Positions 7,101 to 24,961 of a DNA stretch of 37,935 bases are shown here, piece after piece. A program made the position numbers and the translations under genes. The DNA comes from Cytophagales bacterium Ga0077538 (GTDB taxonomy: Bacteria; Bacteroidota; Bacteroidia; Cytophagales; Cyclobacteriaceae), in contig LNEN01000179.1 in assembly GCA_001464155.1 (NCBI GenBank), positions 1 through 37,935 of the forward strand. The letters are read 5' to 3'. Under the pieces are notes generated by a model, which made no database searches, had not been told where the DNA came from, and worked only from the letters and a program-made list of their open reading frames with translations. Position 1 is the stretch's first letter. The number at the start of each line of letters is the position of its first letter.

Positions 7101-10100
7101 AACCCGTTATTGTTACGGGACAAGCACCCATTGCTTGCAGTGGTGAACCTGTAAACAGAGAAATTTTCTTAACACCGCTTAATCAGCCGGTGGCTACCAT
7201 TTTTGATTGGCCGGCACCTGTTATGTCAGATGCTTCTGTTCAAGGCACTGCGAAGAACGTAGCGGCAGGAATTGCCGGGACTTTCCACATTACGGATGTA
7301 CTGGTCAATCTTTCCAATGCACCCATCACAGCCACCTATACAGTTACGCCATCGAACGGTCTGTGTAATGGAGCTCCAGAAACAGTTATTGTTACTGTAA
7401 ATCCTGAACCAATCGGTGTCGATGACAACACCCCAATTATTTGCAGCGATGCACTTGTCAATTATAACCTCTCCAACAATATTGCTACGCTGGGCAATAA
7501 CTTAATAACAGGAACAACCTATTCCTGGATAGCCACCGCCAATCCGAATGTTACCGGGGAGAGTGTAGTAGCGCAAAGTGGCGCCACCATTACGGATGCG
7601 TTGAGTAATACTACCGCATCAGATCAGGTTGTGGTATACACCGTAACCCCTACTAGTTCTTTAGGCTGTTTAGGAAACACCTTTACGATTTCCGTTACTG
7701 TACGCCCTGAACCGGTTGCGACTAATGATGTACTGACCATTTGTAGTGATAGTCCGCTAACGTACAACCTGCAGAACCGGGTGAACTTATCGGGCAATGG
7801 ACTGGCTTCTAACTTTACATGGCTCGCTGCTTCTAATGCGAATGTCACAGGAGAAAGTACAGCCCTTCAAAATACCGGAGTCATTACCGATGTTCTTACC
7901 AACGTAACCAATACCGATCAGGTGGTGGTATATACCATCACGCCTACGGGTACTAATGGTTGTGTGGGTTCTTCGTTTACCTTGACAGTAACCGTTCGTC
8001 CAGAGCCTGTAGGTGCAGATGATTCCTTCACTACCTGCAGTGATGTTGCTTTAAGCTATAATCTGACCAACAACATTACTACGCTGGGGAATAACCTGAC
8101 GGCTAGCTTCTCATGGGTGGCTTTAAATAATCCAAATGTTACAGGGGAGAGTACCACGCCTCAAGCGGGTAATATGATCAATAACACACTTACCAATATT
8201 ACTAACAGCAATCAAGTGGTGGTGTATACCGTTACTCCCACAGGGACTAATGGTTGTCCTGGAGATGATTTCACCGTGAGCGTTACAGTTCAGCCGGAAC
8301 CGAGAGGTGTAAATGATGGCCCCATCGATGTGTGCAGCAATGTCGCCTTTAACTACTCTTTGCAAAATAATGTTAACACCTTGGGGAATAGCGTCACGGC
8401 CAATTTTACCTGGTCAGCCGCAGCCAATGGAAATGTTACTGGTGAGAGTACTGCCCTTCAAGCCGGTGGAACCATTACCGATGTACTGAGAAACGTAACT
8501 AACTCAGATGAACTCATCACCTACACTGTTACGCCAACCGGCACGAATGGATGTGCAGGAAATTCGTTCACGGTTACTTTTAGAGTGCAACCTGAGCCAG
8601 TGGGTGTCAACGATGTAAAAACGATCTGTAGCGATGCTACCGTTAGTGTTGATTTGCAGGATAACGTTACCACGCTGGGAAATAACCTGACTTCCAATTT
8701 TAGTTGGCAAGCGGCCGCTAACGGCAACGTAACTGGTGAGAGCACCACTCCACAGGCATCTTCTATGATTACAGATGCCTTGAGTAATATCACAAACTCA
8801 GATCAGGTAGTGCTCTATACCGTAACACCAACCGGCACAAACGGGTGCGCAGGTGTACCCTTTACCATTTCGGTAACGGTTCGCCCAGAGCCCATTGGTG
8901 TGAATGATGCAAAAACAATTTGCAGTGATGAAATTGTTACGTATGATTTGTTAAGTAATGTGACATCCTTAGGAAATGGCTTGCCAGCCACCTTCTCCTG
9001 GATTGCCGCCTCCAATGGAAACGTATTAGGAGAAAGTACATCCGCTCAGGCAGGTGGTATGATTACCGATGTTCTTAACAACGTCACCAACACCGATCAG
9101 GTAGTCGTTTATACCATTACACCGACCGCCTCTGGTAGCGGTTGTGTGGGGTCACCATTTACGATTACAGTAACGGTACGTCCGGAACCCAAGGGCACGG
9201 ATGCACCGAAAACGATTTGTAGTGATGAAAGCGTAGCCTTTGATTTACAATTGAATGTTAATACACTTCCCGGTAATAGTCTCCCCGCTACCTTTAGCTG
9301 GGTAGCAGCCTCCAATGGGAATGTTACTGGCGAGAGTATCGTTCCGCAAGCAGGCAACACCATTAATGATGTATTGAATAATGTGACCAATGCTAATCAG
9401 GTGGTGGTGTACACGGTTACGCCAACGGGCACGAATGGTTGTATAGGTAATCCTTTTACAATTACAGTAACTGTACGCCCGGAGCCGTTGGGTGTAAATG
9501 CTACGAAGTCTATCTGTAGCGATGAAAATGTTAATGTAGACTTGCAGAATAACGTCACGACTCTTGGCAATAACTTACCGGCCACGTTTAGTTGGATAGC
9601 TTCACCGAATGCCAGTGTGAGTGGTGAGAGCACTTTACCACAAGCGGGTGCATCCATTAATGATGTACTTACCAATGTAACGGGTAGTGATCAAGTGGTT
9701 GTGTATACCGTAACTCCCACGAGTCTTTTAGGTTGCCTTGGAAACTCTTTCACGGTTACAGTAACTGTACAATCAGAACCTACTGCGCCTACCGGTACAG
9801 GTCTTATTTGCAGTGATGCGACTGTCAATTTCAATTTACAGAATCATGTGATTTCGGTTGGAAATGGTCAAGCCTCTACCTTCTCCTGGATTGCCACCTC
9901 TAATGGATCGGTAACAGGCGAAAGCACAAGCCCTGTAGTGGGAAGCACCATTACAGATGTACTCAACAATATCAGCAATGTTGATCAAGTGGTGCGCTAC
10001 ACGGTTACCCCAACGGGTACCAATGGTTGTATAGGCAATGCTTTCTTTGTCGATATAACGGTCCGCTCAGAACCAAGAGGTGCCAATGCACCTGCCACCA

Positions 10101-13100
10101 CCTGCAGTGATGTAGCATTGAATATCGATCTTCAGAATAATATTTCAACGCTAGGCAACAGTCAGGCTTCAACGTTTAGCTGGGTTGCTGCTGCGAATGG
10201 TCTGGTAACAGGTGAGAGTGTAGTGCCGCAGGCCTCTGCTTTTATTACGGATATACTGACTAATAAAACAGGTGTTGACCAGACAGTCGTGTACACCGTT
10301 ACCCCCACAGGTACCAATGGTTGCGTGGGTGATAATTTTACGATTACGGTTACTGTGCAGTCAGAGCCCACAGGAGATGATGATGTGGTGCCTATTTGCA
10401 GTGACAGTAACGTTAACTACGATTTACAGAATAACAATGTGAACGTATTGGGTAATAGCCAGGCGGCTACCTTCACTTGGATTGCCACCGCAAATCCGAA
10501 CGTAACGGGAGAGAATACAGTCCTGCAGACAACCAGTGTGATTAACGATGTACTGAACAATGTGACGGGTGTTAATCAGACAGTGGTGTACACAGTTACA
10601 CCAACCGGTACGAATGGTTGTCTTGGAGATGTGCTTACGGTTTCGATTACTGTACGTCCAGAACCTTTGGGTGTAAATGACACGAAGACGATCTGTAGCG
10701 ACAATAACGTGAGTTACAATCTTCAGGATAATATCAACAACCTGGGTAACTCGCTTATATCCAACTTTACCTGGGTGGCAGCCGCAAATGCGAATGTCTC
10801 AGGCGAAAGCACGATTGCTGTTGCCGGAAATGTGATCAATGATAACCTGAATAACGTAACCAGTATCGACCAGGTGGTTGTTTACACCGTAATACCCACC
10901 GGTACGAATGGTTGTGTAGGAAACTCGTTTACTGTTCAGGTTACTGTTCAACCCGAGCCACAAGGCATTGCAGGTACAAAGACTATTTGTAGTGACCTCG
11001 CTGTTAATTACAATCTTCAAACTGATAACATCAATGCGGGAGGAAACAATGTTGCCTCTACGTTTAGTTGGATTGCTGCAGCCAATCCGAATGTTACAGG
11101 GGAGAGCACAACAGGCCAGAACACAGGAACCATTAGTGATGTCTTAAATAATGTTACCGGTATTGCGCAAACCGTTGTCTACACCGTTACTCCGACTGGT
11201 GTCAATGGTTGTTTGGGTAATGATTTCACGGTGACCATTACGGTGAATCCGGAACCTGTGGGTCAGAATGATACCGACACTTCGTGTAATGTTCCTTTAA
11301 GCTACGATATACAGGCCAGCAACATCAATGTCTTTGGTAATAGTGTAAGCAGTGTCTTCACCTATACGGTGCTTTCATCGGATCAACCGAATGTACCAGC
11401 AGGACCTGATAGGGTAGGAGCCAATGCATTACCGATCACGGATAGCTTCACCAACAGTACTGGGGTGGATGTGTTCATGACGTATACGATTACACCCATC
11501 AGTTCACCTAATGGTTGTGCCGGAAACACCTTCACCTACATCGTCACCATTAAATCAAGACCTATTGGTGCAGATTATACAGAAACACCAAATGTTTGTT
11601 CGAGTGTTCCGTTTGTGGTGAATCCTCAAACCCCTGGTATTACAAATGGTGTAGTCAGTACTTTTACCTGGACTGCTGCGTATGCGCCCGGACTCACCGG
11701 AGGTGTAGGAGCGGGTGTTGGTACCATAGGGGAAACCTTATCGAATGTAGGGGCAGTACCTCTGAGTGTTATTTATACAGTAACGCCAAGTGCTGGTCCT
11801 TGTCAGGGACCTGATTTTGATATTACGGTGATCATCGATCCACAACCGGTAACAGATCCTTCATTAGCGACAAAGACTATTTGTAGTGATTTGATTTCGA
11901 ACATACTCTTAAATACAAATGGTATTTCAGTAGGCGCTACCAATTGGGATGTAGATGTAGTGAGTGTGGATGCTAACCTTGTACCGAATGCAGGCAATGC
12001 TGTTGATCCAGGACTTGCGGAAGTGGCTAACTACATTCAAAACGACAGATACACGAACGTTTCGTTTACTCCTGGCAATGTGATTTATAAAGTTACCCCT
12101 ATTGGTCCACCCGCTACCAGTTGCCGCGGTGTTGACACGTTTGTAACCCTAACTGTAAATCCAGAGCCGGTGATGAATCCTGCTTTGGCTACTCCAGCCC
12201 CTGTTTGTAGCGATGAGATCATCGGTGTTTCCTTAAGCACCAATGGCACCTCAGTGGCAGCGGCCTCTTACATTTTTGTTAGCGTATCAACATTCCAGGC
12301 AGGTAATGCGGCAGCGGATCCAGATGAGACGGGTCCGGGTGACAGACTCGCCTCGGTAATTCAAAACGACAGCTATACAAACCTGACGACAGCTGCCTTC
12401 ACCAGAACGTATCAGATTAAGCCAAAGAGTGCGGCTGGTTGTTTGGGTGATTTATTAAATATACCCGTGCAAGTACTTCCTGAACCAGACTTTACTTTCA
12501 CGATACCACCTCCTATCTGTAGCACTGATTTAATTGGTTTGCAATTGGATACTACGCCAGGATCGGTTCAGGTAGATGAGTATGAAGTAACCTTTATCAA
12601 TTGGGAAACCATTCCAGCTCCGGGTCTCTTACCAGGCGGAAGCAACATTGCTATCGGATCTATCTTACCAGCAGTGGCCGGTTCTTTCACCATTAACGAT
12701 AGCTACGTGAATGGGCAGAACGTATCGCTGAATGCGACTTATTCTATTCGTCCTTATGCTCCTACTACATTAGGCAAGCGTTGCGTGGGCGATGTGAAGC
12801 AAGCTGTAGTGGGCATTCGTCCGTCACCCATTGTATTGGAAGACCTGGACGAAATTGTATGTAACGATGCGACCAACGGTATTTTGATAAACACAAAAAC
12901 AAGCAGTGCGCCAGCAAACTCTTTTGAAATTGTTCGCCCGGCTCTTCCTGCTGGTTTGAGCTTAGGATCATACGTTCCAGGCACAAGTGTGGTAACTGGA
13001 AATTCCACTACGGCCATTGCGAATGATCGTTTTGTGAATACAACCAACAATCCTATACCGGTGATCTATACGGTGCGTGCGAACACTGATGCGGTGCCTG

Positions 13101-16100
13101 CCAGTGGTTGCTTTGGTCCTGCGGAGCAAGTGCAAGTATTGGTAGAACCTCAGATTTTGGTAACACTTGATGCTACTACGAATTTGAAACCAGATATCTG
13201 TGGTGGGACTGACATGACCAACATTGACTTAGAGTCACCATCCAATCCATCTGCAGGAGCAGTGACCTTTAACTTTACGGTGAGTCCTTCTATTTCAGGT
13301 GCCGTACCAGGCACTAACTTTAGTGAAACGGATTTCATTGAACAGGCCTTACTCAACACGACCAATGCTCCGATTAATGTTACCTATTCTATTACACCAC
13401 GTGCTAATAGTGCAGCAGGTGGTTTAGGATGTGTAGGTGTACTGAATACAACGGTTGTAAGTGTTCGACCTTCTCCGAAACTCACACCAACTCCTGCCAA
13501 CTTTACGATTTGTGAAGGCGAACCCTTGGGTGTTGACTTTGCGACCCCTACGACCACCGGTGCCGGTACCAGTGCCGTTGCGTTTGAGTTGATTCGGGTG
13601 GAAGATCCCAATCTGGCGCCTGCAGCTCCGGCTAATGGCATTAGTGGATTCAATAATGTCTTCCCTAGTAACTATGCGATAGGAGCAAATGTATTGAACG
13701 ATGTGCTGACCAACAGCAACGTAGATGGTTTGCAGCACAGCATTCGCTACGCTTTTATTCCTAAGTACACCATTACCTCTAGAGCCTTCGAATGTCGTGG
13801 TGAAGAATCTTATGTGACAGTATTGGTAAGTCCTCGCGCTACCATTACCGGTTTCGATGACATCAATGATGCCATTGCCGAAGGTGATCCGTTGAACTTA
13901 CTTCCGGGTATTCCGGTAGAAGTGTGTTCGGGTGAACCTTTCGATCGTAAGATCCTTTTCACAGGAGCCGATGCGGGTTCTACCAATCTTTCCTGGACTC
14001 GTGTGGCTGATGCCGGAGTAACCGGTTCATCAGGCGGGGCAGGCGATATTTTATCGCAGGTACTCTTTAACTCCACGAATACTGATGTGAGCCTGGTGAC
14101 CTATACGGTCACTCCGAAATCCTTTAACTGTACAGGAGCTCCGGTAAATCTGGTGGCAATTGTATTGCCCGTTGCTAAAGTGGGAACCCTGGCCAGCACC
14201 TTTAAGATTTGTGCCGATGGTACTTTTGAAGTTGATCCAATTCCTTCGCCTACTGTAAATGCGAATTTCTATTGGGCAGTCGACAATCCAGATCCAACCT
14301 TTGTGACACTACAATCAACAACGGCACAACCTGGTACTGTTATCAGTGACACCTGGTTGAATCAGTCACCTACCTTTGACCTGGCTTCGCTGACCTACAC
14401 AATCTCACCTTTTGTGAGCAAGACCACAGGACAAGAATGTTTTGGCACTGATAAGTTTGTAACCGTGAATGATGCCTTTATCTGCGAAGGCGATGAGGAA
14501 CTCTTAACCTTCCTCAACAATGGCTTGAGCAAGTTTAGCCTGAAGTATAGTGAAGGTGGAAGTGAGGTAGTTGTGAACAACGCAGGTGCTGTGGTCAATC
14601 TTTTTGTAACGCCTGCCGCTACCACTACTTATACACTACTTTCTGTAACCGACTCTTACGGATGTGAGCAGACTACCTTTACAGGAAATGCTGTAGTAAC
14701 GGTAAACGTTGCCAATACCAATGCCGATTTCACTGTGCCGGGAGCAGCGATTTCGTGTAGTCCTTTCCCTGTTGATTTTGAGTACGATCAACAAAATGGA
14801 ATTGAATATACCTGGCGCTGGGCCGATGGTGAGTCTGACTCTGTATATGTGGCAGGGGCCACCGTACCAAACGAATCCGTGCGTCACATCTTTACCAACT
14901 TGTCTACTTCGTCCACCAGAAGTTTCAAAGTAGAATTAGAAACCCGTATACCGGATGGCGCTGATGCTGACAATAACTACCCAGGTGGTTGTGCCGATCG
15001 TTCTGACAAAACCGTTCAGGTACACCCGGTAGTGGTGGCGGCTGTTACGGTAGATAAAGATGCTATCTGTAGTGGTGAAACTATTCAGTTTAGAAATTCA
15101 TCTCGTGGTGTGAAGAGCGACACCTGGTTCTACCGAGTTCAAGGTTCTACCGGTCAGTTAGATGTGCGCACTGATACCTATACCGGATCAGAAAGACCAC
15201 CAAGCATTACCTCCTTTACAATGGAGAATCTGATCAGCAACCCTTTGGTGTTTGAAGTGGTATACCAGGCAAGAAACGAAAATTGTTCTGCTCCGGATTC
15301 TGTTACAAGCATTACGGTTTACAGAGGCATGACGGCCGACTTTACCGCTGCTGTGCTAGGACCATACATTGGAGGTCATGCGTATGTGAATGTCACCAAT
15401 ACTTCGAATCCTATTGATGCCGTTGACTTTACCTACGAATGGAACTTTGGTGAGGATGCTGTGCCGGCTGAATTTAATGGCACCACACCGACTAACCCAT
15501 TGGATTATGTGACACCGGGTCAGAAGGAGATTTCGTTGTTGGTTACAAACATTCTGGCTTCGACTGTAGGCTTGTCGTGCAGTGATCTTGTCATCAAAAC
15601 AATTGATATTGAGGTTCCTCCGCTGCAAGCAGACTTTGATGCCATCCCGCTGGCAGCCTGTTTCCCGACAGATATTACAATCGTAGACAACCGAGCCACA
15701 GGCGATGTGTTTGAATGGGAAGTAATTGATGAGGGAGGACGTACCTCTGCTACCTCCAATGCCAACTTACCTGTCTTTGCGATTCCAAATCCTGGTAAGT
15801 ATACCATTTTCCTCACCACCCGAAATTCGTTTACGGGTGATGCAGAAAGTACTTCGAAGGAATTGGAGATTTTTGAATTGCCTACGGCTTCTTTTGAGTT
15901 AAGACCTACCGTGGTATTTATTCCCGATCAGCAAATCACCACGTTCAACTTTAGTGATGGAGCCAATCAGTATGAGTGGGATTTTGGTGATGGCAATACG
16001 TCCATTGACTTTGAACCCACCTTTACGTACCGAGTGGAAGGTGAATACCCCGTTACCTTGGTGGCTGGATTCAATAATGGCTCGCACGATGTAGATGGCG

Positions 16101-16474
16101 ATGGGGTAACGGATGGTGCCATCATCTGCTACGATACCTTAACGCGTACCGTACAAGCAAAGGATGGAGGAGTGACGAGAATTCCTAACTCATTTACGCC
16201 TAACCCGAATGGACCGAACGGAGGCAATGCCGGGAATGGTTCTTTCAACGATGTATTCTTACCAATTACAAAAGGAGTGGAAGAATTCCTGATGCAGATT
16301 TTTGATCGTTGGGGTAACCTGGTGTTTGAAAGTCGTGATAAGAACCAGGGCTGGGATGGCTATCATCAAAATGGTAGTCTCATGCCTGCGGGTGTGTATG
16401 TGTATAAACTGGAGTTGCGCTTGTCGAATGGACAGCGAACGAACCAAGTTGGAGATGTAACCCTCATTCGTTAA
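1193..16474 (+). CDS. Giant multidomain secreted adhesin-like protein, T9SS type B sorting domain
   Basis: This 5093-residue protein is probably a cell-surface adhesin, exported by Sec and then T9SS, of the general SprB-like class. Residues 1-23 form a signal peptide (MRLAVFLISISLFSLNSNRAFSQ). Residues about 30-140 resemble an Ig-like/SWM-type domain. The next roughly 1900 residues are mixed Ig/PKD-like domains, with a jelly-roll-like insertion near 1273-1436. Residues 2071-3352 are 13 closely related units of about 99 residues, each with an ICSD cysteine and a second cysteine in NGCxG; more diverged units follow. Four PKD-type domains lie near 4530-4960 (for example YEWDFGDGNTS). Residues about 4997-5093 are a gliding-motility-associated C-terminal domain (IPNSFTPN, IFDRWGNLVFES, GVYVYKLEL). 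A PorP/SprF gene starts 9 bp later, the standard partner. No enzymatic domain is evident and the ligand is unknown. Confidence 0.93.
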   Translation: MRLAVFLISISLFSLNSNRAFSQADFTQARHETLSQQDIDVSFDQAISFSPLPATSVGWSVTIGGTAVPITSIGTFGPTTVRITFDASGIAGHGGTQAYLKPGEVLRVSYNGTGNLTSIGGVTAFANQQSLNQWVFTCDDVEFKTQGIIPADSQDNCVPVVMDFYQWQFSMSLRMRNSSNFTTALDGSGRTINSNFFYNFNWGDATGTSVNPYLSDVTGASAPSLIENTVFSGSPGVYFTSRPTKNYPATTTPAPNICSWDVVVRPFWIGIPNCNGDSQTTIFNNWDTDNANTGVLNMPFNPPGVGETSDRICLGNNVNMRFTDQTQLNCRLAAPEANNPNQAVRHIRIVYGSTNYAAPGNIPDIHVGGVQVTNSTTGALLAPYNANPILGGGTGYVPTGAGGVGVPDFNGVIQLPTPVLTSTLTTYMQQITTLVATSQVVGQRFYVRLDYWDICNPYNPISPDVNRVSIENYDEIIGKPVALTTAGQSICYTTPNTTAFNFTVASSIGGLRTGVNWYASLANVSSGTRITNPNGTNSLTFPASSYTTANGTAVNFRSDNVGGRYYSLWATQVQGGTNACESDPIEVVIYQQPQINAGADNPTTPVGSTQVCINDVQVYTTSAPGVKTIAANNSTNGAALNFQLENLWSDVFGADVSVSPTNTTGTTTSATFSFAAQPNPSTTNNISVRRRYRTTDLVSVVSPLPAPFTLPTYTIAPQTCQNNNVSLAVTVFGESNGGTIAGSPTICDGSSTGNMILSGHRGSVLQWERSYDDPGPAPAGAFIAIAGTGGLTTFSEIPPNGPGTYKYRVLVQNQNITGPCPSATTIVANQNTVVVNPVPPKPTITPTGATTFCFGGSVTLTSSTVDAARYDWYRGATLVQSGASNTIVLTTVAQSGSYTVQTFGIAPSNCPSIASDPEVVTINPLPVAANPTGGGAVCSGNPAPDIEWAISNGTGPYAVTYTITKNPGAVVSGPFVVNNVTSPFLIDDPNPVGIGGDTFDYKITNIQDANGCFANPITLAAVPAGQVSIGGTAPVLDGPVSLSLSAACDDGGSTSNPQLVFGLTVASANTAGFILNYTVDGGGNRTKNFNTDAAGDPTVGTQVIFSDAELNTLLPSPHVIRIVSIISPSTCQLLIGQNLNFTVNPRPSPPVNPGNVIACSDVVGTTSVLVNNPGAGLTVDWYDVPAPGGVLLANGVLSFVPGAAGTYYAETRNTTTGCTSTLRTAVTLTSDPLPSPANAGASFSTCSTSETLLGVPAFPASATGTWSVGSAIYYQTFSSADNNAGFTAGGSFIPPKDLSWTLNTSNGVFADPATDYIRVNAGRLEAQDVDDNVGGQFVDWQSTSINISAFPGGVDVSLDLSQSGANAGDGVSSFYRINGGALTPFSVNPSLLGAFAASTASAPGLIGNTLEIVVRIELAGNGQFIFLDNVFVRPSGVVLPSITDVNLATTTVSNLQVGANVFTWTVSSQFGVCSPTTSSATITRNPLPVALDPNPAVCESSFGLTEANGIDLTVYNDGVTGIIGSANRTIQYFSDPGRTILIGAPVNNVTHNEVFYTRVTKTDLAPNCTQDGIITIRVNPLPSTNDQVFEICEEAVSSADKDNNNLPILFNDLVTGIAGSTNRTVTWYVDPGVPVSLPSDLVTLVPTPSDVDDVTDGERFYAVVENTLTGCEDVAFVEFDIRPRPAANPISGSASVCAGTNIILYQIGTVVPGSTYSWNLPPDGAGFVRFAGGGPNDFFVLLQFPSVITPPNDSYNISVTETSPNPDACTGVANSLTITVETSPSPNPIIGPNPVCKTETEVYQVTTIDPLNTYQWSITAGDAAIVGPASGTGLGSITVDFGTSASSTIRVVEQSPTGCSIAGGQTLVVNANDQPTMTSPATATVCSGLAVSTALNFVASIPLSTFNWQVINVTGTVTGTALGNTGSGNIGQTIVNTTGGVASVTYRVTPTSPDGCQGPFQDVVVSITPQPVIVTGQAPIACSGEPVNREIFLTPLNQPVATIFDWPAPVMSDASVQGTAKNVAAGIAGTFHITDVLVNLSNAPITATYTVTPSNGLCNGAPETVIVTVNPEPIGVDDNTPIICSDALVNYNLSNNIATLGNNLITGTTYSWIATANPNVTGESVVAQSGATITDALSNTTASDQVVVYTVTPTSSLGCLGNTFTISVTVRPEPVATNDVLTICSDSPLTYNLQNRVNLSGNGLASNFTWLAASNANVTGESTALQNTGVITDVLTNVTNTDQVVVYTITPTGTNGCVGSSFTLTVTVRPEPVGADDSFTTCSDVALSYNLTNNITTLGNNLTASFSWVALNNPNVTGESTTPQAGNMINNTLTNITNSNQVVVYTVTPTGTNGCPGDDFTVSVTVQPEPRGVNDGPIDVCSNVAFNYSLQNNVNTLGNSVTANFTWSAAANGNVTGESTALQAGGTITDVLRNVTNSDELITYTVTPTGTNGCAGNSFTVTFRVQPEPVGVNDVKTICSDATVSVDLQDNVTTLGNNLTSNFSWQAAANGNVTGESTTPQASSMITDALSNITNSDQVVLYTVTPTGTNGCAGVPFTISVTVRPEPIGVNDAKTICSDEIVTYDLLSNVTSLGNGLPATFSWIAASNGNVLGESTSAQAGGMITDVLNNVTNTDQVVVYTITPTASGSGCVGSPFTITVTVRPEPKGTDAPKTICSDESVAFDLQLNVNTLPGNSLPATFSWVAASNGNVTGESIVPQAGNTINDVLNNVTNANQVVVYTVTPTGTNGCIGNPFTITVTVRPEPLGVNATKSICSDENVNVDLQNNVTTLGNNLPATFSWIASPNASVSGESTLPQAGASINDVLTNVTGSDQVVVYTVTPTSLLGCLGNSFTVTVTVQSEPTAPTGTGLICSDATVNFNLQNHVISVGNGQASTFSWIATSNGSVTGESTSPVVGSTITDVLNNISNVDQVVRYTVTPTGTNGCIGNAFFVDITVRSEPRGANAPATTCSDVALNIDLQNNISTLGNSQASTFSWVAAANGLVTGESVVPQASAFITDILTNKTGVDQTVVYTVTPTGTNGCVGDNFTITVTVQSEPTGDDDVVPICSDSNVNYDLQNNNVNVLGNSQAATFTWIATANPNVTGENTVLQTTSVINDVLNNVTGVNQTVVYTVTPTGTNGCLGDVLTVSITVRPEPLGVNDTKTICSDNNVSYNLQDNINNLGNSLISNFTWVAAANANVSGESTIAVAGNVINDNLNNVTSIDQVVVYTVIPTGTNGCVGNSFTVQVTVQPEPQGIAGTKTICSDLAVNYNLQTDNINAGGNNVASTFSWIAAANPNVTGESTTGQNTGTISDVLNNVTGIAQTVVYTVTPTGVNGCLGNDFTVTITVNPEPVGQNDTDTSCNVPLSYDIQASNINVFGNSVSSVFTYTVLSSDQPNVPAGPDRVGANALPITDSFTNSTGVDVFMTYTITPISSPNGCAGNTFTYIVTIKSRPIGADYTETPNVCSSVPFVVNPQTPGITNGVVSTFTWTAAYAPGLTGGVGAGVGTIGETLSNVGAVPLSVIYTVTPSAGPCQGPDFDITVIIDPQPVTDPSLATKTICSDLISNILLNTNGISVGATNWDVDVVSVDANLVPNAGNAVDPGLAEVANYIQNDRYTNVSFTPGNVIYKVTPIGPPATSCRGVDTFVTLTVNPEPVMNPALATPAPVCSDEIIGVSLSTNGTSVAAASYIFVSVSTFQAGNAAADPDETGPGDRLASVIQNDSYTNLTTAAFTRTYQIKPKSAAGCLGDLLNIPVQVLPEPDFTFTIPPPICSTDLIGLQLDTTPGSVQVDEYEVTFINWETIPAPGLLPGGSNIAIGSILPAVAGSFTINDSYVNGQNVSLNATYSIRPYAPTTLGKRCVGDVKQAVVGIRPSPIVLEDLDEIVCNDATNGILINTKTSSAPANSFEIVRPALPAGLSLGSYVPGTSVVTGNSTTAIANDRFVNTTNNPIPVIYTVRANTDAVPASGCFGPAEQVQVLVEPQILVTLDATTNLKPDICGGTDMTNIDLESPSNPSAGAVTFNFTVSPSISGAVPGTNFSETDFIEQALLNTTNAPINVTYSITPRANSAAGGLGCVGVLNTTVVSVRPSPKLTPTPANFTICEGEPLGVDFATPTTTGAGTSAVAFELIRVEDPNLAPAAPANGISGFNNVFPSNYAIGANVLNDVLTNSNVDGLQHSIRYAFIPKYTITSRAFECRGEESYVTVLVSPRATITGFDDINDAIAEGDPLNLLPGIPVEVCSGEPFDRKILFTGADAGSTNLSWTRVADAGVTGSSGGAGDILSQVLFNSTNTDVSLVTYTVTPKSFNCTGAPVNLVAIVLPVAKVGTLASTFKICADGTFEVDPIPSPTVNANFYWAVDNPDPTFVTLQSTTAQPGTVISDTWLNQSPTFDLASLTYTISPFVSKTTGQECFGTDKFVTVNDAFICEGDEELLTFLNNGLSKFSLKYSEGGSEVVVNNAGAVVNLFVTPAATTTYTLLSVTDSYGCEQTTFTGNAVVTVNVANTNADFTVPGAAISCSPFPVDFEYDQQNGIEYTWRWADGESDSVYVAGATVPNESVRHIFTNLSTSSTRSFKVELETRIPDGADADNNYPGGCADRSDKTVQVHPVVVAAVTVDKDAICSGETIQFRNSSRGVKSDTWFYRVQGSTGQLDVRTDTYTGSERPPSITSFTMENLISNPLVFEVVYQARNENCSAPDSVTSITVYRGMTADFTAAVLGPYIGGHAYVNVTNTSNPIDAVDFTYEWNFGEDAVPAEFNGTTPTNPLDYVTPGQKEISLLVTNILASTVGLSCSDLVIKTIDIEVPPLQADFDAIPLAACFPTDITIVDNRATGDVFEWEVIDEGGRTSATSNANLPVFAIPNPGKYTIFLTTRNSFTGDAESTSKELEIFELPTASFELRPTVVFIPDQQITTFNFSDGANQYEWDFGDGNTSIDFEPTFTYRVEGEYPVTLVAGFNNGSHDVDGDGVTDGAIICYDTLTRTVQAKDGGVTRIPNSFTPNPNGPNGGNAGNGSFNDVFLPITKGVEEFLMQIFDRWGNLVFESRDKNQGWDGYHQNGSLMPAGVYVYKLELRLSNGQRTNQVGDVTLIR
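7403..11248 (+). repeat. 13 tandem ~296-bp repeats encoding PKD/Ig-like domains
   Basis: Residues 2071-3352 of the giant protein divide into 13 units of 98-99 residues. Each runs from PEP or SEP, through ICSD, a LGN segment, FSWIAA, VTGEST, INDVLNNVT and QVVVYTVTPTGTNGC, to FTVTVTV. The first unit starts at 7403. The 14th unit, at 11249, and the next two, at 11555 and 11840, are visibly diverged and mark the edge of the tight array. Codon choice differs between units even where residues are identical, so the array is not a fresh duplication. Confidence 0.9.
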
Positions 16475-16483
16475 TTTTCAGAG

Positions 16484-17515
16484 ATGATGAAGCGTTTACT
16501 TGTTGCTTTACTTGTTTTGATAGGAGTGGAGAATGTGATGGCTCAAGACCCTCAATTTTCTCAATACTATCAAGCTCCGCTTTATTTAAATCCGGGCTTT
16601 GCCGGAATTACACCGCAGCAACGCTTGGTGGTAAATCATCGTGTGCAATGGCCCAATCTGCCTCAGGCTTTTTCTACCTATGCCGCTTCGTACGACATAT
16701 TCGTAGAAGAGCTTCGCAGTGGTTTTGGATTCTTAGCGACTACGGATAAAATGGGTTCTGCCGGTTGGCGCACGACTACGTTCAATGGCTTGTATTCCTT
16801 TAAAGTAAAGTTGACGGAGAAAATTGTTTTCTCTCCGGGCTTAAGTTTTGGCTACGGCATCAATGGACTGGATCGAAACAAGTTGACCCTTGGGGATGGC
16901 TTAGAGTTTGAAGGACAATCCTTAGATCCGGATCTTAACAAATTGGGTAATCAATCCTATTTTGATTTTGGATCGGGCTTTATCTTTTACAGTCGTAACA
17001 TTTGGCTAGGGGCTGCCTTTCATCACATGAACCAACCCAACCTTTCGGTACTGAATGATGTAAGCCGTTTGCCAATGAAAACCTCTATTCATGGTGGGGC
17101 GAAATTGGCCTTGTATAAAGGTCCGCGAACCATCGCGCGAATGTCTTACTTAACACCTTCTTTTATTTATCGCACCCAGGGCAAAACGTTTTCCCAATTG
17201 GATGTGGGGATTAATTATCACATCGATCCTGTTTCAGTAGGTATTTGGTACAGAGGTAAGCCCTTTCAGCAAACGGTTATTAACAGTGTAACGCAAGATG
17301 CTATGGTTTTTTCTTTGGGAATGTATCTCAAGAATCTTTCTGTAGGCTATAGTTATGACTTCACTGTTTCAGAACTTCAAACGGCTTCAGGGGGTGCGCA
17401 CGAGATATCCCTTATCTATGAATTTGTAGCCAAGCCGCTTAACCGAAGCGTAAAGCGCAAATACAGATTGATCCCTTGTCCCTCCTTCAATAGCAAAGAA
17501 GGGTTCTGGAATTAA
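16484..17515 (+). CDS. PorP/SprF family type IX secretion membrane protein
   Basis: This 343-residue outer-membrane protein is the usual partner of type B T9SS cargo, needed for cargo export or surface attachment in SprF/SprB-type pairs. It has a signal peptide ending near MAQ, followed by the family hallmark DPQFSQYYQAPLYLNPGFAG. It then shows alternating beta-strand-like segments, including GFGFLATTDKMG and NIWLGAAFHHMNQPN, and a basic tail with a CP motif near the C-terminus (KRKYRLIPCPSF). Length fits the family. The gene starts 9 bp after the adhesin stop, so the two are almost certainly co-transcribed. The family is clear, but which member it is orthologous to cannot be told. Confidence 0.93.
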   Translation: MMKRLLVALLVLIGVENVMAQDPQFSQYYQAPLYLNPGFAGITPQQRLVVNHRVQWPNLPQAFSTYAASYDIFVEELRSGFGFLATTDKMGSAGWRTTTFNGLYSFKVKLTEKIVFSPGLSFGYGINGLDRNKLTLGDGLEFEGQSLDPDLNKLGNQSYFDFGSGFIFYSRNIWLGAAFHHMNQPNLSVLNDVSRLPMKTSIHGGAKLALYKGPRTIARMSYLTPSFIYRTQGKTFSQLDVGINYHIDPVSVGIWYRGKPFQQTVINSVTQDAMVFSLGMYLKNLSVGYSYDFTVSELQTASGGAHEISLIYEFVAKPLNRSVKRKYRLIPCPSFNSKEGFWN

Positions 17516-19802: not shown

Positions 19803-20311
19803 AGGACGAGTTGAAGGATTTTGTACAAATGCACCGGAGTGCTTTTGACGACAAGGAGGTTCCTGCACAGGTTTGGGAAAATATTGATCAGTCGTTATTT
19901 AAAAAGAGTTTTCAGATCAGGCCCATACAGTACTGGCAGGCAGCAGCCGTTGTATTTTTTGCGTTGTCTTCCTTTTTGTTGGTGCGCAATGTACTTCCCC
20001 TAGCGAAGCCCGGTGAGGCCAAAGAATTTGCAGACACCGAAGCCTTTTACACACAACAAATTCAGGAAAAGGTAGCCTTGATTCATTCTGTTAATACCAA
20101 TGATTTAAGTGCCTTTGGACAAGACTTACAGCAACTGGAAGCCATGTACGCTGTGCTTAAAGAAGAGCTGGAAAAAAGACCTAGCGAGAAGGTGAAGGAT
20201 GCACTGATTCTTAATCTAATGGTGCGTACAAATTTGTTGAATAAGCAATTACAGGAATTGGACAGCGCACAAGAGTCTACCGACCGCGAAGAAGCACCGA
20301 TCAATTCATAG
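19799..20311 (+). CDS. Putative anti-sigma factor, single-pass membrane protein
   Basis: This 170-residue protein is not recognised by a specific motif. A cytoplasmic N-terminal stretch of about 42 residues precedes one transmembrane helix (YWQAAAVVFFALSSFLLV). An outward-facing, charged and probably helical region follows (QDLQQLEAMYAVLKEELEKR). No zinc-binding HxxxCxxC motif is present. The anti-sigma role is inferred from its start overlapping the ECF sigma stop by four bases and from its topology. Its 3' end overlaps the convergent permease gene by about 11 bp. Confidence 0.6.
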   Translation: MKDELKDFVQMHRSAFDDKEVPAQVWENIDQSLFKKSFQIRPIQYWQAAAVVFFALSSFLLVRNVLPLAKPGEAKEFADTEAFYTQQIQEKVALIHSVNTNDLSAFGQDLQQLEAMYAVLKEELEKRPSEKVKDALILNLMVRTNLLNKQLQELDSAQESTDREEAPINS

Positions 20312-21135
20312 CGTTCACCAACTTCTTGCGTAGTATGCCGTGACTTGGGGAAAAGAGAAAGGCCAGCGCGAAGACTACACCACTGCAGGAAGCTATGGCT
20401 GCAGCGATCGAACCATCGATCCATAGCAACACATGCATAGACAAGCATGCGCGGAAAGGAATCTGTTAGCAAGTAGGCTGTAGCGGCCGGAACAATCAAC
20501 AAAGCCACCACAAGGATGGCTCCCACCGATTCAAAAGATGCCACAGTAGTAGTAGAAACAAGGGCCATGATAAGGTAGTGCCACAAGGCAGTAGAAAAGC
20601 CCAGGGAGGCAGCATAACCAGGATCGAAAGAAGTGAGTAGAAGTTCTTTGAAGAAGAGTGCGAGCACCAGTAGAATTAGCACCAGCACCAGGCTCATCAC
20701 CACAACCGCTTTGGGTGCGAGTACAAAGCCACTGTCCAGTATAATCATGTCTAGTGGTGTGTAGGCTATTTCGCCATACAACACACAATCTTGATCTAAG
20801 TCGACCTTACCGGCAAATAGTGATATCAGCACCACCCCAATGGCAAAGAGCCAGGTAAAGGTTACACCAATGGCAGCATCACTTTGCAGTCGTGCTTTTT
20901 TATGAAAGAATTCGATTAGGAAAGTGGTGAACACGCCTAACACCCCAGCCCCAATTAACATAGTTACTGAATCACGACTACCGGAGAGCAGAAAGGCGAT
21001 CACAATTCCGGGTAGCACTGCATGGGAGATGGCATCACCTATAAGCGCCATTCGTCTAAGGATTAAAAAGCATCCCAACAAGGCACAGCAAATGGATACG
21101 AGAGAGGCGGTGAGTATAATCCAAAAGTCGTTCAT
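20301..21135 (-). pseudogene. Metal ABC transporter permease (Znu/Mnt/Tro type), frameshifted near the C-terminus
   Basis: This is the second membrane permease of the metal-uptake operon (ABC-3 family). The first 238 or so residues are normal: RRMALIGDAISHAVLPGI, several TM helices, then ILVVALLIVPAATAYLLTD. After FPRMLVYACV the track frame degrades to non-membrane sequence and runs on to 20083. The +1 frame instead gives LLWIDGSIAAAIASCSGVVF, then ALAFLFSPSHGILRKKL and a stop at 20301-20303, exactly what the family has. Compared with the sister permease here, about 13-15 residues are missing at the junction (20415-20445). A non-triplet deletion of about 40 bases explains both gap and frame change. 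It could be a real mutation or an assembly error. Stop to stop, it overlaps the convergent putative anti-sigma gene. Confidence 0.8.
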
Positions 21136-21138
21136 ACT

Positions 21139-21173
21139 ATCAGTTATTCGTTATCAGTTGTCCGTTATCCGTA
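21139..21173. repeat. Heptanucleotide tandem repeat (5 units)
   Basis: Five contiguous 7-mers, ATCAGTT ATTCGTT ATCAGTT and GTCCGTT ATCCGTA, fill the gap between the two permease genes. They also cover the last three codons and stop of the upstream one. On the coding strand the unit reads roughly AACTGAT. This resembles the short tandemly repeated repetitive (STRR) heptamers known from other bacteria. Confidence 0.7.
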
Positions 21174-22454
21174 AGGGCTTTGCGTCTTGTGCGGATATAC
21201 GGTTGGGTAATTGAGTATACGTTCAAGGTCTGCTTCCAATTCAGGAGTCAGAAAGTGTTCAATGGTTTCGGCATCTTCATGCACGTGATCAGGAGCAATG
21301 TTGACATGCGTTGTCAGGTACAACTCCCATAAACGATGAATCTTCACGATGCGCTGTGCTCTTGTTTTTCCTTCTTCTGTCAACCCCCAGAGTTTACCAC
21401 TTCGTTCCACATAGCCTTGTGCAAACAAGCGATGTAAGGAGGCCATCAGTCTTTGGGGATGTAGTTTTCGTTTACGGATAATCTCATCGATGTAACGCTG
21501 CAAGTAAAAATTCTTGTTTTCTTCTCCCAGTTGATAGAGCGCTTTTAAAACATTTTCGTCCTGTATGGTTCGTTGAAAACGCTTCTGTTTAAAATGCCTG
21601 TTGAGTATTCCTTTTCGGGGTGCCAGAAAAAAAGAAAGTAAGGCAAGTGTTGAAACAACAATGACGATCCAGGGACCCGTGGGCATAGAAGGAGCCGTAT
21701 ACGAAATGTAGGCACCCGCCAATCCGCTGAAAGCACCTACCGAGGCAGCCACTATGAGCATGGCGCGAATAGAGGTAGTCCAGAAGCGTGCGACTGCAGC
21801 AGGCGTAATGAGTACTGCCGCCATCAACACCACGCCTACTGCTTGGATGCCAATCACTACCGCCAGCACAATCATGGAAGTCATCAGTAATTCAATTCGT
21901 TTTACAGGAAGTCCTAAAGACAACGCGTAGTTTCTATCGAAAACCACGAGCTCGAATTCTTTCAGAAAGAGAATCGTCATCACGATTAAGATGATGGCTA
22001 CTACGGAGAAGACTATCAAATCATTCCCCACTAAAGCGGCTGCTTTTCCAAAGAGAAAATGATCCAAACCAGCTTGATTGGCATTGCCACTTTTTTGAAT
22101 GACCGTCAGCAACAGAATACCAATTCCAAAGAAAACAGAAAGCACCATGCCAATGGCGGTGTCTTCTTTAATGCGACTACGGGTAGTGACTACCTGAACT
22201 ACTTGCAACGAGAGCCAACCTGTTATGAAAGCGCCCAGAATAAGGTAAAAAGGATTTTTGGTGCCCGAAAGCATAAACCCTAAGCAAATGCCCGGTAGTA
22301 CGGCATGCGCAATGGCATCGCCCAGCAAAGACTTCTTATTTAAAAAGGTAAAGGAACCTACTAAAGCAGAACTAGCAGTAATCAGAATAGAGCCCAGCGT
22401 AACGTAGCGCACGTTGGGATCGGCAAAAGAGAAAAACTCTGTGAAGTTACTCAT
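21165..22454 (-). CDS. Metal ABC transporter permease fused to a DtxR-like C-terminal domain
   Basis: This 429-residue inner-membrane protein is two modules in one chain. Residues 1 to about 285 are an ABC-3 metal permease (KSLLGDAIAHAVLPGICLGF, many TM helices, VLMAAVLITPAAVARF, FFLAPRKGIL). Residues about 295-429 resemble an iron/manganese-dependent DtxR/MntR repressor. They include a winged-helix segment (RLMASLHRLFAQGYVERSGK, LWGLTEEGK) and a dimerisation/metal segment (HRLWELYLTTHVNI, DHVHEDAETIEHFL). The stop codon lies in the heptamer repeat. The start overlaps the ATPase stop (ATGA). The tail may sense cytoplasmic metal and gate transport rather than bind DNA; that is inference. Confidence 0.9.
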   Translation of the reverse strand: MSNFTEFFSFADPNVRYVTLGSILITASSALVGSFTFLNKKSLLGDAIAHAVLPGICLGFMLSGTKNPFYLILGAFITGWLSLQVVQVVTTRSRIKEDTAIGMVLSVFFGIGILLLTVIQKSGNANQAGLDHFLFGKAAALVGNDLIVFSVVAIILIVMTILFLKEFELVVFDRNYALSLGLPVKRIELLMTSMIVLAVVIGIQAVGVVLMAAVLITPAAVARFWTTSIRAMLIVAASVGAFSGLAGAYISYTAPSMPTGPWIVIVVSTLALLSFFLAPRKGILNRHFKQKRFQRTIQDENVLKALYQLGEENKNFYLQRYIDEIIRKRKLHPQRLMASLHRLFAQGYVERSGKLWGLTEEGKTRAQRIVKIHRLWELYLTTHVNIAPDHVHEDAETIEHFLTPELEADLERILNYPTVYPHKTQSPYG

Positions 22455-23254
22455 ACGGCTTTGTCTTCTCTGTTCGGAAAATCTTCTCTGCGTATTAAGT
22501 CGCCTACATCGGACAAGAGAGTAAGCTTACCACCATACGTCTCTTGTAAGTTATGCTGCGTGAAAACTGTTTCGGTAGGACCGTGCGCAATTAAGCGGGT
22601 GTTCAAAAGAATGACCCAATCAAAATAGGAAGTAACCGATTGTAGATCGTGATGAACTACAATAACCGTTTTGTTCGCGGCCGTCATACTTTGCAGCAGT
22701 TGTATGATGGTCTTCTCCGTAGCCGCATCTACACCGGCAAAGGGTTCATCCATAAAATAGATGTCTGCTTGTTGTGCTAGTGCGCGTGCTAAAAAGGTAC
22801 GTTGTTGTTGTCCGCCAGAAAGTTGTGCAATCTGACGATTGGCAAAAGATTCCATTCCTACTTTTTTCAAGCAGTCCATCGCCACATCCATGTCGGCCTT
22901 TCGCGGACGTTTCACCAAGCCTAGTTTTCCATAGCGTCCCATCATCACTACATCCAGCACGGATACCGGGAAATCCCAGTCGACAGATTCGCGTTGCGGA
23001 ACATAACTAATGCGCGATCGAACAGCCGAAAGTTCCTGATCATATAATTTGCAATAGCCGCTGCTCAAGGGAAGAAGCCCCATCACCGATTTGATAAGAG
23101 TTGATTTTCCTGCACCATTCGGTCCGATAATGCCGACTAGTTTTCCTTGCGGAATGGTAAGGTCAATATTCCATAGTACCGGCTTGCGATCGAAGGCAAC
23201 AGTCAAGTCGTGTACTTCTAAGGCAGGGTGTGCTGGTGTAATGTGCTTTTCCAT
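22451..23254 (-). CDS. Metal ABC transporter ATP-binding protein
   Basis: This 267-residue cytoplasmic ATPase powers metal import with the neighbouring permeases. Walker A is GPNGAGKST near residues 44-52, the signature is LSGGQQQR, Walker B is DIYFMDEPF, and the H-loop is VVHHD. The Q-loop region reads ISYVPQRESVDWDFPVSVLD, typical of the Mn/Zn/Fe (MntB, ZnuC, TroB) branch. Length is normal. It starts 5 bp after the binding-protein gene and overlaps the next permease start by four bases, so translation is probably coupled. Confidence 0.95.
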   Translation of the reverse strand: MEKHITPAHPALEVHDLTVAFDRKPVLWNIDLTIPQGKLVGIIGPNGAGKSTLIKSVMGLLPLSSGYCKLYDQELSAVRSRISYVPQRESVDWDFPVSVLDVVMMGRYGKLGLVKRPRKADMDVAMDCLKKVGMESFANRQIAQLSGGQQQRTFLARALAQQADIYFMDEPFAGVDAATEKTIIQLLQSMTAANKTVIVVHHDLQSVTSYFDWVILLNTRLIAHGPTETVFTQHNLQETYGGKLTLLSDVGDLIRREDFPNREDKAV

Positions 23255-23259
23255 AGGAA

Positions 23260-24273
23260 TTATTTCAAAGACTCTACAATCGTGCTTACATTTTTATGAA
23301 CCATTCCAATATAGGTACCTTCCTTAGTGTTGGCTGGTCCCATGGCATCGGAATATAAACTTCCGCCAATGCGCACTTGCCAGTTTTGTTGCAGGCAACC
23401 TTCAATGACCGCGTTGATCGATTTTTCGGAGACAGATGTTTCCACAAAAATGGCTTTGATTTTTCTGTCAATAATAAAGTCCACTAACGCTGTTACATCT
23501 TTCAGTCCAAACTCTGCTACGGTTGAAATCCCCTGCAAGCCACGTACTTCTACTCCATAGGCATCGCCAAAGTAACCGAAAGCATCGTGGGCAGTAATCA
23601 ACACGCGTTGCGATTCCGGTATCTCCTTAATTTTTTCCTGGATGGAAGCATGTAAAGAGTCTAATTGCAGAAGGTAAGTGCTAGCATGCTCAGTATACTC
23701 TGCAGCGTGGATTGAATCAGTGTTTGCCAACGTAGTGGCGGCAACTTTCACTGCTTCTTTCCACAAGGCCACATCAAACCAGATGTGTGGATCGTGTATA
23801 CCATTTGCTACACTCCGCAGACGCGCTGTGTCAATCTCACCACCTACAGCAACCACCGTTTTTGTTCGGGCGAGTTTCTCTAGGACTTCACCCATTTTAC
23901 CCTCCAGGTGTAAACCGTTATAGAAGATAATATCGGCATTCGTTAATTTTTCCAGGTCACCTTGTGTGGCTTTGTACAAGTGCGGGTCTACACCAGGACC
24001 CATCAACGCGACAACGTCTGCATGATTGCCCACAATATTCTTAACCGCATCCGCGATCATTCCTGTTGTGGTAACGATGCTGAGCTTATCACTCTTTGCT
24101 GTTTCAGCTTTAGGGGAGCAGCTGGAGAGGATACTAAGTAGAATCAAGGCTAGCAAGTAAATTATGGAAGTAGGGTTACTAGCTACTAGCTTCGAGCTAC
24201 TAGGTTGAGGCTCGAAGCTTGAGGCTTGAAGCTTGTAGTTTACTATGAGATGGTTTTCTGATTTTATATTCAT
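23260..24273 (-). CDS. Metal-binding lipoprotein of ABC transporter (TroA/ZnuA family)
   Basis: This 337-residue substrate-binding lipoprotein captures Zn, Mn or Fe outside the inner membrane. Likely ligands are three histidines and one aspartate: His in GVDPHLYKATQGD, His in HDPHIWFD, His in TAHDAFGYFGDAYGVEV, and Asp in LYSDAMGP. The HHHD set is as in TroA and unlike the Glu of PsaA/MntC. The lipobox is ILSSC. It is odd that about 36 residues precede the hydrophobic signal core. A heptamer repeat array (24178-24240) encodes most of this extension (KLQASSFEPQPSSSKLVAS). I see no downstream ATG before the signal core, so the array seems to have lengthened the N-region. It starts two bases after the regulator gene. 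Confidence 0.92.
   Translation of the reverse strand: MNIKSENHLIVNYKLQASSFEPQPSSSKLVASNPTSIIYLLALILLSILSSCSPKAETAKSDKLSIVTTTGMIADAVKNIVGNHADVVALMGPGVDPHLYKATQGDLEKLTNADIIFYNGLHLEGKMGEVLEKLARTKTVVAVGGEIDTARLRSVANGIHDPHIWFDVALWKEAVKVAATTLANTDSIHAAEYTEHASTYLLQLDSLHASIQEKIKEIPESQRVLITAHDAFGYFGDAYGVEVRGLQGISTVAEFGLKDVTALVDFIIDRKIKAIFVETSVSEKSINAVIEGCLQQNWQVRIGGSLYSDAMGPANTKEGTYIGMVHKNVSTIVESLK
24178..24240. repeat. Heptanucleotide tandem repeat inside the lipoprotein signal region (9 units)
   Basis: Nine contiguous 7-mers run ACTAGCT ACTAGCT, TCGAGCT ACTAGGT, TGAGGCT CGAAGCT, TGAGGCT TGAAGCT, TGTAGTT. On the coding strand the unit is roughly AGCYTCA or AGCTAGT. The 63-bp length is in frame and gives a seven-residue periodicity in the protein. 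It is the second heptamer array in the same operon, with a different unit. Confidence 0.75.
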
Positions 24274-24275
24274 AC

Positions 24276-24932
24276 TTATTCTTTTACTAAAATGTTTTCA
24301 GCCGCTTCACGCGAAATCAGTTGAGGGTTATTGTCTTTGATCGAAACTTCCAGGGAGCCATCAAATTCGATACGCTCTGTTACGAGCACCTTGGCACCGA
24401 TTTGTACCCCAATTTTACTGAGGTATTGAAGGAAAGATGGAGAGCCATTACGAACAGCGCAGACATAGAGTGTTTTGTTGATAAGTGCATCCTTCAGCAC
24501 TACTTGTTTCTCCTGCTTAATGCGTCCATTCTTGTCTGGTATCGGATGTCCATGAGGATCTGCCGTGGGATGTCCCAAGAACTCATCCAGCTTTTCGATG
24601 AGCAGGGAGGAGTGAATATGTTCTAATTGTTCGGCCACCTCATGCACCTGGTCCCATTGAAAATTTAGCTTTTGCACGAGAAAGGTTTCCCACAAGCGGT
24701 GTTTGCGCACAATACTCAGGGCGAGTTGCTTCCCTTTTTTGGTGATGTTTACGCCATAGTACTTTTCATACTCAATTAACTCCTTTGACGAGAGTTTCTT
24801 AATCATGTCCGTCACCGTAGCTGCCTTCGTGTTCAAAGAGGCTGCGATTTCATTGGTAAGCACGGCTTTGGTACCACCTTCAGAAAGATGGTAAATGGAT
24901 TTCAGGTAGTTTTCTTCCGTGTAACTAAGCAT
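24276..24932 (-). CDS. DtxR/MntR-family metal-dependent transcriptional regulator with FeoA-like domain
   Basis: This repressor of about 218 residues heads the metal operon. An N-terminal winged helix (EENYLKSIYHLSEGG, SLNTKAATVTDMIKKL) is followed by the dimerisation/metal domain (VRKHRLWETFLVQKL, DQVHEVAEQLEHI, HPTADPHGHPIP). A C-terminal FeoA/SH3-like domain covers about the last 70 residues. The track starts at TTG 24956, but that codon lies inside the TATTTTTG promoter box. The ATG at 24932 (MLSYTEENY) is the sensible start and matches the family N-terminus. A palindrome just upstream of the -7 box suggests autorepression. It is co-transcribed with the transporter genes. Confidence 0.93.
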   Translation of the reverse strand: MLSYTEENYLKSIYHLSEGGTKAVLTNEIAASLNTKAATVTDMIKKLSSKELIEYEKYYGVNITKKGKQLALSIVRKHRLWETFLVQKLNFQWDQVHEVAEQLEHIHSSLLIEKLDEFLGHPTADPHGHPIPDKNGRIKQEKQVVLKDALINKTLYVCAVRNGSPSFLQYLSKIGVQIGAKVLVTERIEFDGSLEVSIKDNNPQLISREAAENILVKE

Positions 24933-24953
24933 ACCGTACGGATTAACGATATG

Positions 24954-24961
24954 CAAAAATA
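24954..24961 (-). promoter_or_regulatory. Putative -7 promoter box of the metal-uptake operon
   Basis: The reverse strand reads TATTTTTG, an exact TAnnTTTG match, 21 bp upstream of the ATG at 24932. It overlaps the TTG that the ORF track used as a start, which argues against that start. Confidence 0.6.

Follow-up and report, generated by a model that had tools for sequence, protein, structure and literature searches.

The nine degenerate heptads at the beginning of a ZnuA-type lipoprotein gene in Cytophagales bacterium Ga0077538 are most probably a heptad insertion that was tolerated at a permissive gene border and captured as a disposable extension of the signal peptide, rather than an on/off switch. 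The array is one of the 7-bp-periodic arrays that are spread over this genome and are mainly located where two genes adjoin. In the very tight space between DtxR and ZnuA, it appears to have entered just downstream of the start codon, and it would have been retained as a lengthening of the signal-peptide n-region by approximately 21 residues because its orientation and unit order leave it stop-free in the gene's frame and its 63 bp are divisible by three. The array-encoded segment would then be discarded on cleavage by signal peptidase II before Cys 52. Translation from the ATG, this cleavage and the near-neutrality of the array are what we infer. The features concerned have the following positions in the window, i.e., the whole stretch of DNA that was analyzed (37,935 nt):

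24276..24956, minus strand: DtxR/MntR-type metalloregulator with an FeoA domain, the upstream gene of the operon
24271..24273, minus strand: ZnuA start codon, 2 bp past the regulator stop, at a position conserved in congeners
23260..24273, minus strand: gene of the ZnuA-type metal-binding lipoprotein (PF01297), with the ATG at 24273, the lipobox ILSS-C and Cys 52
24178-24240, minus strand: heptad array of nine degenerate AGCTNNN-type units, gene nt 34-96, in frame in ORF 24273-23260
22451..23254, minus strand: ABC ATPase of the metal transporter
21165..22454, minus strand: ABC-3 permease 1 with a C-terminal Fe_dep_repr_C domain (PF02742), its stop codon lying within the second heptad array
21138-21172, minus strand: second heptad array, TAACNNN type, filling the junction between permease 1 and permease 2 and supplying the stop of permease 1

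The array and its host gene

The array consists of the heptamers AACTACA, AGCTTCA, AGCCTCA, AGCTTCG, AGCCTCA, ACCTAGT, AGCTCGA, AGCTAGT and AGCTAGT, which make seven different words in a tract of 63 bp with a 7-bp period, and, counted from the A of the ATG, it begins 33 bp downstream, on the border between the regulator and ZnuA. Its identity to itself was 0.70 at lag 7 and 0.71 at lag 14, but only 0.19 at lag 6 and 0.20 at lag 8. The best periodicity was matched by none of 20,000 shuffles, and within the 38-kb window no other 63-bp stretch, apart from shifts by a few bases, equaled its lag-7 identity. The array was also detected by TRF. It encodes residues 12-32 (YKLQASS/FEPQPSS/SKLVASN), which have an imperfect seven-residue period and are followed by the signal core IIYLLALILLSILSSC.

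The remainder of the protein contains the ZnuA domain (PF01297, E 2.4e-76, 257 bits, residues 66-334). A lipobox, ILSS-C, is present, the Cys column is invariant in an alignment of eight sequences, and cleavage by signal peptidase II is predicted. The initial annotation had described nine 7-bp units encoding a peptide of seven-residue period before the signal core of a metal-binding lipoprotein, with no ATG between array and core, and all of this was confirmed: between the initiator ATG and the lipobox Cys, in-frame codons of the start type are limited to a pair of TTGs inside the core, at gene nt 118 and 127. These TTGs are available for a start downstream of the array, which would turn the latter into an untranslated leader. 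Such a mis-assignment of the start is extremely unlikely, as it would leave a signal peptide of only 12 or 9 residues before the Cys and no basic n-region, and the position of the ATG relative to the regulator stop is conserved in the congeners. Moreover, the ATG frame is open across the entire array, and both other frames carry stops inside it or just behind it (gene nt 72, 75, 86, 89, 93 and 96).

Further down the operon, the second array occupies the permease junction, which reads CCTTAC-GGATAACGGACAACTGATAACGAATAACTGATAGT-ATG in the window and CCTTAC-TGAC-ATG in the congener G001; the latter is a clean, array-free orthologous site. In permease 2 (20083-21135), the ABC-3 match ends at profile position 219 of 258. 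The remaining domain appears to go on in a different frame, which makes a frameshift or an error of the assembly likely. Positions 1193-17515 we take to encode a 5093-residue repetitive secreted protein and then a PorP/SprF-like protein.

Homologues of the lipoprotein

Most homologues lack the array. In the congeners G003, G002 and G004, the ZnuA ATG lies 3-4 bp past the regulator stop and the core follows directly, without any extension (N-termini MNTKLTLHQLYYYSICLALLLGAC, MKLKLYLSLTFISLLILSC and MKLKLYITLTFISLLMVSC, respectively). The ZnuA start of G090 is also placed directly before the core. In the DNA alignment, the start context of ZnuA in G000, as we call the genome of the window (a single fragmented draft assembly), is the same as in the congeners, and the distance from the first ATG to the Cys is mostly 14-31 residues among approximately 30 homologues of the family vs. 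51 in G000. Since the congeners start at the same ATG directly before the core, the repeat entered the n-region of the signal peptide. The initial annotation had likewise placed it between the start codon and the signal peptide and had proposed an alignment of homologues as a check; the alignment supports this placement, with G003, G002, G004 and G090 all beginning directly before the hydrophobic core.

A different heptad array is found at the homologous place in G001, where 3.7 exact TTTCAAA units (AATTTCA/TTTCAAA array) follow the ZnuA start (MLYKFQISNFKF...) and give MLYKFQISNFKFLNATLPFFLVFTLVIAC. Among more distant relatives, weaker, heptad-like tracts accompany long extensions in G091 (64-73 residues, degenerate AGTTGGC-type tract) and at locus L152 (about 72 residues, AGAACTC units). 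In a tree built on four proteins (ZnuA, the regulator, the ATPase and MenC), G001 and G003 are sisters with 94% support, and G000 falls outside. Since G003 is array-free, this branching order would call for two gains at the ZnuA site or, alternatively, for one gain combined with one loss and an exchange of the word. Heptad arrays at one site in two congeners could also be a sign that the site offers some use and is not just permissive.

Phase variation and RNA structure as alternatives

The array had also been read, in the initial annotation, as a candidate phase-variation switch for metal uptake. In such a switch, one or two units gained or lost by slippage would change the frame, and part of the population would no longer make the lipoprotein. 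The frame argument itself is sound: both non-gene frames, and thus a shift by one unit, meet stops in or just after the array. In addition, 7-bp repeats govern phase-variable genes elsewhere, such as hmw1A of Haemophilus influenzae (PMC8262952), and the 3.7 units at the same place in G001 are perfect. However, seven of the nine units in G000 differ, and the longest exact runs are 7 bp at lag 7 and 9 bp at lag 14; with units this degenerate, efficient slippage is not expected. In the hmw1A constructs considered here, the tandem copies number 13-24 and their effect is on the promoter (PMC8262952). Moreover, similar degenerate arrays occur genome-wide at gene junctions and are mostly noncoding, and a metabolic enzyme has one in its linker; they are not confined to surface genes and are also present at sites for which the frame is irrelevant. 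The switch is thus unsupported, and we regard it as very unlikely.

Capture as a signal-peptide extension was further weighed against a role of the array in mRNA, where a hairpin near the start codon would tune translation of the lipoprotein relative to the co-transcribed regulator. The array does fold into a 10-bp stem (z of -3.5 as RNA and -3.4 as DNA), and a heptamer array is also present at this site in G001. A regulatory element of this kind nevertheless seems unlikely, considering that the array is missing in G003, G002, G004 and G090 and that G000 and G001 do not share its words. For the TAACNNN elements, arm complementarity was 15.4 within elements and 14.9 between elements (sd 2.9); since the arms of one element are no more complementary to each other than to those of other elements, the stems seem to follow from the shared vocabulary. 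Selection for a specific hairpin was considered as well and found to be unsupported, as covariation of the arms, tested in the TAACNNN elements, was not found. A search against Rfam gave no match. The strong hairpin in the array RNA could still have a role in expression.

Heptad arrays across the genome

Arrays with a constant tetramer and a variable triplet (AGCTNNN, TAACNNN) are spread over the genome, mainly in intergenic positions and often 0-10 bp from a stop or start codon. A blind scan for tetramers recurring four times at lag 7 gave 11 occurrences in G000 (493 kb scanned) and 17 in G001 (790 kb scanned), compared to 0-4 for each other lag from 5 to 16, making 7 the commonest period; the same scan of 200 kb of G003 gave none at lag 7. 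With overlapping matches counted separately, AGCTNNN arrays in G000 had 38 matches vs. 2 for the reversed pattern and TAACNNN arrays 225 vs. 43, the reversed pattern being no neutral control because it spells a heptad word itself, CAATNNN, which is common in some genomes. Across the family, exact TAACNNN arrays were found in 41 of 119 genomes and exact AGCTNNN arrays in 21 of 119, again with a reversed control that is itself a heptad word.

Junctions shared by G000 and G001 were compared in a small synteny sample of 45, for which the array-bearing loci were partly picked for having arrays: 40 were array-free in both genomes and one carried arrays in both at a strict threshold. By inspection, both genomes carry heptad arrays, with differing words, at three shared junctions (regulator-ZnuA, L305 and L317), and junction L306 has an array in G000 but not in G001. 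In the comparison with G003, one junction was found at which G000 alone carries an array.

A number of TAACNNN loci (L294-L313, partly picked for having both orientations) are bi-oriented, with a GTTA arm first and a TAAC arm second, an order that yields hairpins and offers stops to readers of both strands.

Capture in coding sequence and origin of the arrays

The lipoprotein is not the only protein with a heptad-encoded segment. In G000, the interdomain linker of the fused methylmalonyl-CoA mutase contains an AGCT-type array, KLQASSYKLRASSLELQTSN (L334, G000:C149:30078-30115), and the mutase linker of G001 (L335) has an array of the AATTTCA type in this position, LKFQISNLKFQIPNF; the linkers of the G002 and G004 enzymes are shorter and array-free. 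The arrays captured in coding sequence are stop-free in the frame used, and the stop-carrying TAACNNN arrays sit at gene ends, as exemplified by the permease 1 stop in the window. The same argument about stops was already made for TAACTGA by MacGregor (PMC4679880). As a side observation, a short insert of the TTGACAA type distinguishes the MenC (L286-L290) of G000, G001 and G003 from that of G002 and G004.

A copied element was also considered as the origin of the ZnuA array. A search with a 21-mer of the array type, allowing up to three mismatches, found no match besides the array itself, and matches of the full array elsewhere are partial. The best of those beyond the window is located in G001, with 90% identity over 29 bp, and the mutase linker of G000 matches with 83% over 36 bp. 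In view of the missing close copy, an element copied as a whole is unsupported. As a tentative explanation, which we consider possible rather than probable, some process in this Bacteroidota family may write arrays in which the period and a tetramer are retained but the complete word is not, and this at the same gene junctions, signal peptides and linkers of different species. The arrays would then be assembled or rewritten on site instead of being copied, and stop-free word families would repeatedly become protein.

Comparison with known systems

Direct repeats of the heptamer TAACTGA have been described from Beggiatoaceae, Cyanobacteria and five Bacteroidetes (MacGregor, 2015; PMC4679880). 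They are mostly located at gene borders near start codons, and some of them reach into the ends of reading frames and are translated there in the orientation that contains no stops (PMC4679880). The second array, which contains the word TAACTGA, is a near relation of these repeats. The ZnuA array shares with them the 7-bp period and the location on a gene border close to a start codon, but it is of the AGCTNNN type instead of being built from one invariant word. The best-studied TAACTGA genome is dominated by a single word, and repeats of related heptamers are rare in it (PMC4679880). The arrays described here, in contrast, combine a constant tetramer with a triplet that changes from unit to unit; they fall into several coexisting word families, and homologous sites of congeners carry different words. 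Although intergenic heptamer repeats were thus already known, here the same sites bear different words in related species and have array-free orthologues in other congeners, which makes the origin of heptad arrays testable by comparative genomics. The ZnuA signal peptide and the mutase linker are cases of heptad arrays becoming protein sequence.

The (ATCTTTC)n tract of hmw1A resembles the ZnuA array in its 7-bp unit and gene-proximal location. In comparison, it is a long tract of one unit, located in a promoter and shown to vary (PMC8262952), and the ZnuA array consists of nine degenerate units within coding sequence and is known from one assembly. With respect to ordinary lipoprotein signal peptides processed by signal peptidase II, the h-region and the lipobox (ILSS-C) are of the usual type, but the n-region, of approximately 36 residues, is largely repeat-encoded. 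Overall, the array seems to work like a captured intergenic heptad array and is not classed here as a phase-variable locus.
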